NCBI GenBank assembly: GCA_944326565.1
Contig: CALVEL010000003.1
Span: forward strand, 62,001-126,000
DNA from: Candidatus Gastranaerophilales bacterium
Lineage (GTDB): Bacteria > Cyanobacteriota > Vampirovibrionia > Gastranaerophilales > Gastranaerophilaceae
Direction of reading: 5' to 3'
Length of the DNA stretch: 64,000 nucleotides
Part shown: positions 2,756 through 7,496 of the stretch, in pieces
Position numbering within the stretch: position 1 is the stretch's first letter
Layout: every line of letters starts with the position of its first letter
The notes under the pieces: generated by a model
Databases searched by the model: none
What the model saw: the letters and a program-made list of their open reading frames with translations, nothing else
What the model was told of the DNA's origin: nothing
Made by a program: the position numbers and the translations under genes

Positions 2756-3822
2756 TATCTCACCTTATTTTTCGGGTCTAAAACATCTCTTATTGTATCA
2801 CCTATGAGATTAAATGCCAAGACCGCAACAAAAATTAAAAAACCAGGAGTTAAAAGCCATGGGCGTGAGATTATATTTGTAAATTCTTGCGCTTCTTTAA
2901 GCATATTCCCCCAGCTTGCATCAGGCTGTTGAATACCCAATCCTAAAAAACTTAAACCGGATTCAGACAAAATATAAGATGGCACAGACAAAGTCATAGC
3001 AACAATAACAAAACTTGTTGTCTGAGGAAGAATATGTTTTACTATAATTCCTAGCCTTGATTGTCCGATTGAACGTGCAGCTTGTACAAACTCACGATTT
3101 TTAACAGAAAGCACCATACCTCTGACAACTCTTGCAAAACCTGCCCAGCCGACTAGCGCCAAGATAATTACAATCAGCATAAATCTTTGAATACTTGTCA
3201 TGCCTGAAGGCAAGACAGATGCTAAAATTATCAAAAGATAAAAGCTTGGAATTGACATAACAGCTTCTGCAAACCTCATCATAATCGCATCAACTTTTCC
3301 TCCAAAATATCCTGAAATTCCTCCATACAGGAGTCCTATAGGAAACAGCACAAATAATGCCAAAAATCCAATTGTCATCGAAATTCTTCCGCCAAATAGA
3401 AGCCTTGAAAACACATCACGACCATTTATATCAGCTCCTAACAAAAACAACCTGCCTGAACTATCTGTTGTCACAAGGTGTCTTCTCATAGGAATTAACC
3501 CTAAAAATTTATAAGGCTCGCCCTGTGCAAAAAATTTTATATAATGTTTTTGACTTCTATCAAGTGAATAGACTATTTTCAGATTTTCACCGTCAAAATC
3601 TCTGCGATAATTATATATATAAGGCTTTGACAATTTACCATTCTCATCTATCATAAAAATCTTTGAAGGCGGCACGTAAGCCATTGTCCTATCAGAAAAA
3701 TCCTTTGTATAAGGTGCTATAAAATCTGCAAAAAACAAAGCAAGATAAATTATGCCTAACAAAATTAAAGCAATACGAGCGAATTTATCTTTCCAGAGTT
3801 GTTTCAAAACCTCTTTTATCAT
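2755..3822 (-). CDS. Peptide-type ABC transporter permease (OppC/DppC family)
   Basis: A 355-residue inner-membrane permease of a DppC/OppC-type importer. An N-terminal span at about 15-35 is followed by a periplasmic insert of about 100 residues, then the core helices. The EAA loop that docks on the ATPase is visible at about 243-262 (ARSIGQSRLGIIVKHILP). The C-terminus has the LSESGLSFLGLGIQQP segment typical of the family. The ATG at 3822 overlaps the upstream permease stop as ATGA, and a strong GGAGG lies 7 nt upstream. It pairs with the OppB-type permease at 3819-4799 and the binding protein at 4799-6643. No ATP-binding subunit is encoded nearby. Substrate is presumed oligopeptide and is not established. 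Confidence 0.93.
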   Translation of the reverse strand: MIKEVLKQLWKDKFARIALILLGIIYLALFFADFIAPYTKDFSDRTMAYVPPSKIFMIDENGKLSKPYIYNYRRDFDGENLKIVYSLDRSQKHYIKFFAQGEPYKFLGLIPMRRHLVTTDSSGRLFLLGADINGRDVFSRLLFGGRISMTIGFLALFVLFPIGLLYGGISGYFGGKVDAIMMRFAEAVMSIPSFYLLIILASVLPSGMTSIQRFMLIVIILALVGWAGFARVVRGMVLSVKNREFVQAARSIGQSRLGIIVKHILPQTTSFVIVAMTLSVPSYILSESGLSFLGLGIQQPDASWGNMLKEAQEFTNIISRPWLLTPGFLIFVAVLAFNLIGDTIRDVLDPKNKVR

Positions 3823-6697: not shown

Positions 6698-7426
6698 TTA
6701 CCAAGGATAATCTTCTTTTATTTCCCAACCATCTATTTCAATTACAGCTCCACAATATTGACCAAGATTGTTTTTATTACAATCGCTTCTTAAAAGTTCA
6801 TCTCGACTTTTATTATAATAATTTGACATCTGTAATATGTAATGTTTTTCTTTTGATATATTATAACCATAAGTTGTCCAAAAAATATCTCTGCCAACTA
6901 CATTGGGTAATTTTTCTCCGTTTACATCTATTGCTACAGAATAAGCAGTTCTTGATCCATCACCAAGAGTATAAGAGCTTACCATATAAACATATCCTTG
7001 ATTTGTTTTTATTGTATATACCCAACGAGTCATAGTTGTCTCACCATTGAGCCCTTTGGGATAATTTTTATATCCTGCAGAAACCAATGCTCTGAATGTT
7101 TTTGTATTTGGATCTTTAAAATAAGGAACAATGTATGTTTCTGCAAACTCTTCTGCGGTGCACATATTTGGTAAAAAACATACCCAATCTTTCATTTCAC
7201 CGTAATCATTCTCAGCTAACAATACTGTTTGATGCAAAAAATTATAAGCTTGTTGAAGTTTTTTAACAGTCGTCTTTTTTTGATAACCGTTAATTATTCC
7301 AGGCAATGTCATAGCGATAACAATTCCAAGTAATCCAAGAGTTATCAATACTTCTGCTAATGTAAATCCTATTTTTTTACCTTTGAGGAGCTTATTTTCG
7401 GGTGCCCCCCCCCCCCCTAATTTCAA
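6698..7426 (-). CDS. Type IV pilin-like protein with a poly-G tract at its start (possible phase variation)
   Basis: A prepilin-like protein with the class III signal KKIG^FTLAEVLITLGLLGIV: basic leader, Gly before the cleavage point, Phe at +1, Glu at +5, then a hydrophobic helix. The mature domain of about 210 residues has paired cysteines (WVCFLPNMC and SDCNKNNLGQYC). The only start in frame with the pilin in this sequence is TTG at 7426, which lacks a good ribosome site. The ATG at 7439 has an ideal AAAGGAG 6 nt upstream and a strong promoter behind it, but is out of frame because the intervening tract is 13 G. With 12 or 15 G the ATG would read straight into the pilin. The gene is therefore switched off here, mis-assembled by one base, or read from the weak start. 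Confidence 0.85.
   Translation of the reverse strand: MKLGGGGAPENKLLKGKKIGFTLAEVLITLGLLGIVIAMTLPGIINGYQKKTTVKKLQQAYNFLHQTVLLAENDYGEMKDWVCFLPNMCTAEEFAETYIVPYFKDPNTKTFRALVSAGYKNYPKGLNGETTMTRWVYTIKTNQGYVYMVSSYTLGDGSRTAYSVAIDVNGEKLPNVVGRDIFWTTYGYNISKEKHYILQMSNYYNKSRDELLRSDCNKNNLGQYCGAVIEIDGWEIKEDYPW
7405..7417 (-). repeat. Homopolymer tract G13 (C13 on plus strand)
   Basis: Thirteen consecutive C on the plus strand, in a sequence that is about two-thirds A+T, located between the best start codon (ATG 7437-7439) and the prepilin signal of the pilin-like gene. Tracts of this length slip during replication in many bacteria and are also prone to sequencing length errors. Confidence 0.95.
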
Positions 7427-7436
7427 TCATAGCCTG

Positions 7437-7452
7437 CATTTTCAGCTCCTTT
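7437..7452 (-). promoter_or_regulatory. Ribosome binding site and likely true start of the pilin-like gene
   Basis: On the minus strand AAAGGAG (7446-7452) precedes ATG (7437-7439) by 6 nt. The reading frame from this ATG is MQAMIEIRGG and ends after the G tract at a TAA, because the tract has one base too many to enter the pilin frame. Confidence 0.7.
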
Positions 7453-7467
7453 CGCTTTTACCATTTT

Positions 7468-7496
7468 ATTCTAGCAGAATTTCTTATAATTTGCAA
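7468..7496 (-). promoter_or_regulatory. Sigma-70-type promoter of the pilin-like gene
   Basis: On the minus strand there is a -35 TTGCAA (7491-7496), a 17-nt spacer and a -10 TAGAAT (7468-7473), with TGC directly before the -10 (extended -10). The predicted transcript starts near 7461, some 20 nt before the AAAGGAG-ATG pair, supporting ATG 7439 as the intended start. Confidence 0.65.

Follow-up and report, generated by a model that had tools for sequence, protein, structure and literature searches.

Poly-G runs as probable slippage switches of a type IV pilin-like repertoire in Gastranaerophilales

A 64,000-nucleotide stretch of a Candidatus Gastranaerophilales genome (GenBank assembly GCA_944326565.1, contig CALVEL010000003.1, positions 62,001 to 126,000; hereafter the window, with positions counted from its first nucleotide) contains a gene for a type IV pilin-like protein that is parted from a strong translation start by a run of 13 G. 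The run leaves start and pilin one G out of frame. Judging from sequence comparisons, we think it likely that this run and others like it are phase switches, driven by slippage at replication, of a repertoire of type IV pilins that is poised in the off state. Near-identical copies of such loci differ by exactly one G, and the off-frame pilin genes are nearly all intact.

The switch region and the protein behind it

The switch region is read from the minus strand. A putative sigma-70-like promoter (7468–7496), recognized by direct reading and by its match to the consensus, comprises TTGCAA (7496–7491) and TGC-TAGAAT (7473–7468) with a 17-nt spacer, and would drive the gene. The Shine–Dalgarno sequence AAAGGAG (7446–7452) lies 6 nt ahead of an ATG (7439–7437), and the G13 run follows at 7405–7417. 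In the 13-G state, this ATG opens a short reading frame (7392–7439), MQAMIEIRGGGGTRK, which ends at a TAA (7394–7392). The pilin frame is one nucleotide off that of the ATG and reads APENKLLKGKKIG-FTLAEVLITLG, continuing to 6698. Its leader peptide (7367–7404) is predicted from sequence to be removed by prepilin peptidase, leaving a mature type IV pilin-like protein (6698–7366) with the FTLAEVLITLG N-methylation motif, a long N-terminal helix and a beta-rich C-terminal domain. A preliminary description of this DNA had proposed the promoter, the AAAGGAG site, the ATG, the run and the prepilin signal, and direct reading confirmed all of them. It also bore out the early stop of the ATG frame after the run and the calculation that 12 or 15 G would join the ATG to the prepilin signal.

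The Shine–Dalgarno segment AAGGAGCT (7444–7451) and an AGCTCCT within the conserved block downstream of the run (CACCCGAAAATAAGCTCCT, 7386–7404) form an inverted repeat of 7–8 nt that recurs in many cassettes. The idea that this repeat masks the ribosome site was rejected, as the pairing was weak in six folded leaders and no better than in shuffled sequences, although it could still matter.

The window protein matches PF07963 at 22.6 bits (cut-off, 21.2), and its AlphaFold2 model (pLDDT 85) predicts a helix over residues 23–75 with strands after it. A fold search of the PDB with this model gave no significant match, and the C-terminal domain is without assignment. The genome carries genes for a prepilin peptidase and PilB-type ATPases, as well as a pilB–pilC pair with a run-bearing pilin gene two genes further on. 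Motif, modelled helix and beta-domain, and machinery genes together point to a type IV pilin-like protein that may be incorporated into a filament. The N-methylation motif family has 67 matches in the genome, and about half of the pilin-like genes thus bear a G-run. A search for phage homologues found none.

A leader cassette repeated across genome and family

The nearly complete genome (1.87 Mb) holds 33 runs of at least 10 G, compared with about 0.1 expected from the composition of the window (33% GC). All but one of these occupy the same position ahead of a prepilin motif and belong to a repeated leader cassette that leads from a Shine–Dalgarno sequence and start through a leader of 22–33 nt and G10–14 to CACCCGAAAATAAGCTCCT, or a variant of it, and then the motif. 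Most of the 32 cassettes show the same AAGGAG-ATG arrangement, and a 20-nt form of the conserved block that includes the last G of the run has 19 exact copies genome-wide. In genome G000, identity is 75% (median, nucleotides) for the leader cassette, 45% for the upstream DNA and 22% (amino acids) for the mature proteins. Runs longer than 7 G have been rated hypermutable (PMC4235727); the window locus has G13 and the 33 loci have G10–14, and a change of one G toggles the frame between start and pilin. The single run that does not precede a pilin, a G10 at position 3501 of locus L032, has no clear start nearby.

Within the genus, 13 of 14 genomes carry the exact cassette (G9 or more, then CACCCG), which is absent from every genome sampled elsewhere. 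A genome of this family can hold as many as 176 runs of at least 10 G, against 0–3 in the order's other families. Genomes G022 and G034, from two other genera that were partly sampled, have different leaders in the same arrangement before prepilin motifs. Among the relatives, those with names in GTDB are Candidatus Gastranaerophilales and Scatousia metagenome assemblies. Most sequences from relatives are metagenome consensuses; their loci were retrieved by searching for runs no shorter than 9 or 10 G, which misses shorter ones, and start codons were set by a simple rule. Viral contigs searched for the cassette yielded only unrelated G-rich sequence. In G026, G029 and G087, many contigs have an end no more than about 100 nt from a poly-G run, which suggests that assemblies break at these runs and that the number of loci is underestimated.

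Additional G-runs in related genomes lie inside open reading frames for glycosyltransferases, acyltransferases, AlgX-like proteins and glycerophosphotransferases. They include L195 (G022), L197–L199 (G026), L109 (G034) and L139 (G076), several of which cluster on one G026 contig. Genes for glycosyl-, acyl- and glycerophosphotransferases are those that poly-G phase variation usually affects, and by sequence these loci may form a wider candidate set of phase-variable surface genes in the family.

Frame states, length changes and selection

We mapped 145 loci over the three genera and scored each relative to its Shine–Dalgarno start as in frame (state 0), one G in surplus (state 1) or one G short, equivalent to two in surplus (state 2). 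In-frame loci account for 29 of the 145 (about 20%), and most others are off by one specific step. States 0, 1 and 2 number 19, 63 and 9 in the window's genus, 6, 23 and 0 in G022, and 4, 1 and 20 in G034 (genus g22), in which the sign of the offset is reversed and 20 of 25 loci are one G short, at G10. The modal run in the window's genus is 13, 11 or 12, as set by the frame class of the leader; the offset is conserved and the length is not. When lengths were shuffled among loci in 20,000 trials, the pattern was never reproduced for the genus or for G022 (P = 5e-5, the resolution limit), and G000 alone gave P = 1.5e-4; the test ignores shared ancestry and the loci are paralogues, so these P values are not strict probabilities. 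The preliminary description had proposed this comparison of the tract among relatives, which revealed varying lengths and frames rather than one constant in-frame length.

Of the 88 off-by-one loci, 81 carry a pilin-frame stop between the Shine–Dalgarno start and the run, often formed from ATGA. Such a stop might tighten the off state.

Three of 15 close pairs of loci differ by exactly one G, with leader length unchanged and downstream flanks 94–98% identical. These are L017 of G000 (G12) and L052 of G006 (G13); L115 (G12) and L120 (G11) of G001; and two copies of L194 in G022 (G13 and G12). In each pair the shorter copy is in frame and the longer is off-frame. Ten close pairs with the same leader contain 3 indels in 120 nt of run and 2 in 2,338 nt of flank, so the runs gain or lose length far more rapidly than the DNA around them, alternating between the same two states. 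Some equal totals reflect not slippage but the substitution of G for a T that borders the run.

From run to motif, the pilin frame has 5 stops in 4,014 codons, compared with 314 and 372 for the two alternative frames. Complete off-frame genes are full length in 81 of 82 cases for state 1 and in 27 of 28 for state 2. Purifying selection acts on the window gene, with dN 0.20, dS 2.11 and a dN/dS of about 0.09 relative to its closest homologue (in G008; 72% amino acid identity). This homologue has a G11 run and is in frame; no groES/opp synteny was found in its surrounding DNA that was examined. At L052, L063, L191 and L213, dispersed repeat-like elements have inserted between run and prepilin motif. 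They are kept open in the pilin frame, read ...ILRFAQNDKK or ...NKFGMT, and extend the predicted leaders to 50–110 residues.

The one-G flips, the in-frame homologue and the intact off-frame pilins support the switching by slippage that the preliminary description had suggested. We hypothesize that one G gained or lost at replication joins or parts the strong start and the prepilin frame. Because the run sits in the leader that prepilin peptidase is expected to remove, the mature pilin should be unaffected by run length. About 30 solitary pilin genes in the genome would share the switch, with most loci per genome off yet one step from on. A population would then contain a shifting minority of cells that make, and may assemble into pili, different pilins from a large repertoire, possibly to their benefit in the gut.

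In Campylobacter, deletions become more frequent than insertions at G10 and above (PMC8224891), which makes a gene with one G too many the easiest to switch on. By analogy, selection for being poised could give the off-by-one pattern in the window's genus and in G022. G034, with its G10 runs one G short, breaks the deletion-favoured rule. Other observations weigh against the slippage switch. The states are non-random, with 62 of 90 loci in the genus and 23 of 29 in G022 exceeding the in-frame length by one G, and run length tracks the frame class of the leader, neither of which is predicted by free-running slippage alone. MutS and MutL are intact in the genome; loss of mismatch repair is rejected as the cause, and slippage may be slower than in Campylobacter.

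Alternative readings and known systems

Alternatively, the off-by-one state may be decoded at the RNA level, through RNA polymerase slippage or ribosomal frameshifting, so that the pilin is constitutive but dampened and changes in DNA length are tolerated. The conserved frame offset over runs of modal length 13, 11 or 12 per class (with the permutation results above) and the selection on off-frame genes would both fit such recoding. We nevertheless regard it as rather unlikely, given that G034 prefers an offset of the opposite sign, that six folded leaders have no significant conserved stimulatory RNA structure (z −0.9 to +1.6) and that roughly a fifth of loci are plainly in frame. Programmed transcriptional slippage would entail a conserved out-of-frame state, which is seen here, and the same direction across lineages, which is not. 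A related and similarly doubtful possibility is that the off-by-one state is itself functional, with a diversified pilin family held off by selection, recoding at the RNA level and DNA slippage as a second heritable layer. Poised-off selection and RNA-level slippage are not separated by sequence alone.

The pilin might instead be translated from an internal start that is already in frame with it, for example the TTG at 7424–7426, with the Shine–Dalgarno ATG producing nothing but a leader peptide. The window and many loci of the genus have a TTG at −9 or −10, straight after a stop in the same frame, and counted from TTG 7426 the pilin reading frame has 242 codons. However, this would be a weak start, 19 nt past the Shine–Dalgarno sequence, and in other leaders its position is occupied by CTG or GTG or is absent. 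Moreover, at 49 loci, of which 46 are off-frame, the pilin frame offers no ATG, GTG or TTG ahead of the motif, so an internal TTG cannot be the general start; we judge internal initiation very unlikely. The preliminary description had considered TTG 7426 as a possible real start of the window gene and had also named an assembly length error as the simple alternative. Taken as a systematic error, the latter would mean that the true runs are in frame. Many relatives are metagenome assemblies, contigs end near G-runs, and runs of this kind are prone to errors in Illumina data (PMC4235727, PMC9187656). Yet such an error would have to add one G whether a run has 11, 12 or 13, do so in many genomes, and remove one in G034, and the assembled length shifts with the frame of the leader. 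That 12 of 18 non-pilin runs in G022, G026, G034, G076 and G079 are in frame speaks against a general length bias in the assemblies, and we give this explanation the least credence.

Slipped-strand switching has its closest known counterpart in the sortase pili of Bifidobacterium breve UCC2003 (bbr_0113 and bbr_1889), in which a run of G10–G12 lies near the start of the pilin gene, mixed lengths were detected by maximum depth sequencing and the joined form was enriched in mice (PMC9187656). That organism is also a gut commensal, with a strong upstream start that opens a short reading frame, a downstream frame without its own start, and fusion that needs −1+3n, as at the window locus. In contrast, B. 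breve is an actinobacterium with Sec/LPXTG sortase pili in one or two operons per genome, whereas the organism studied here, of cyanobacterial lineage, has about 30 single loci of type IV pilin-like genes with a shared leader cassette. The window protein lacks LPXTG and matched only prepilin-type motif models, and no search aimed at a sortase gene was made.

Campylobacter jejuni is likewise AT-rich and has a few dozen G-runs that switch the frame of surface genes by single-base changes, with deletions favoured at G10 or more (PMC8224891, PMC4235727). It lacks mismatch repair and switches mostly glycan and modification genes, whereas this genome has MutS and MutL and nearly all of its runs are in pilin leaders. 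Neisseria shares poly-G frame switching of surface genes and many variant pilins, but in that genus one pilE is altered through gene conversion from silent copies (PMC4235727), whereas each of the copies described here is a complete gene served by a promoter and G-run of its own. In Shigella mxiE-type programmed transcriptional slippage, at least as cited in PMC3711429, a gene is also held out of frame at a homopolymer and productive slippage occurs on RNA, whereas here the DNA length itself differs between near-identical copies.

The preliminary description knew of no poly-G switch in this lineage, and our searches of the open-licence literature similarly found nothing relevant on phase variation in Gastranaerophilales or Melainabacteria. 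For practical purposes, annotation pipelines will mis-start or miss such pilins, and assembled lengths at G-runs are unreliable unless checked by reads. The hundreds of independent runs offer a natural data set on why genes settle one step off-frame, for which mutation bias, selection for being poised and RNA-level expression are candidate causes. If the switch operates as we propose, an abundant, uncultured gut lineage of non-photosynthetic cyanobacterial relatives would have one of the larger poly-G-switched surface repertoires in these genomes, with dozens of type IV pilin genes, not glycan enzymes, as its components.
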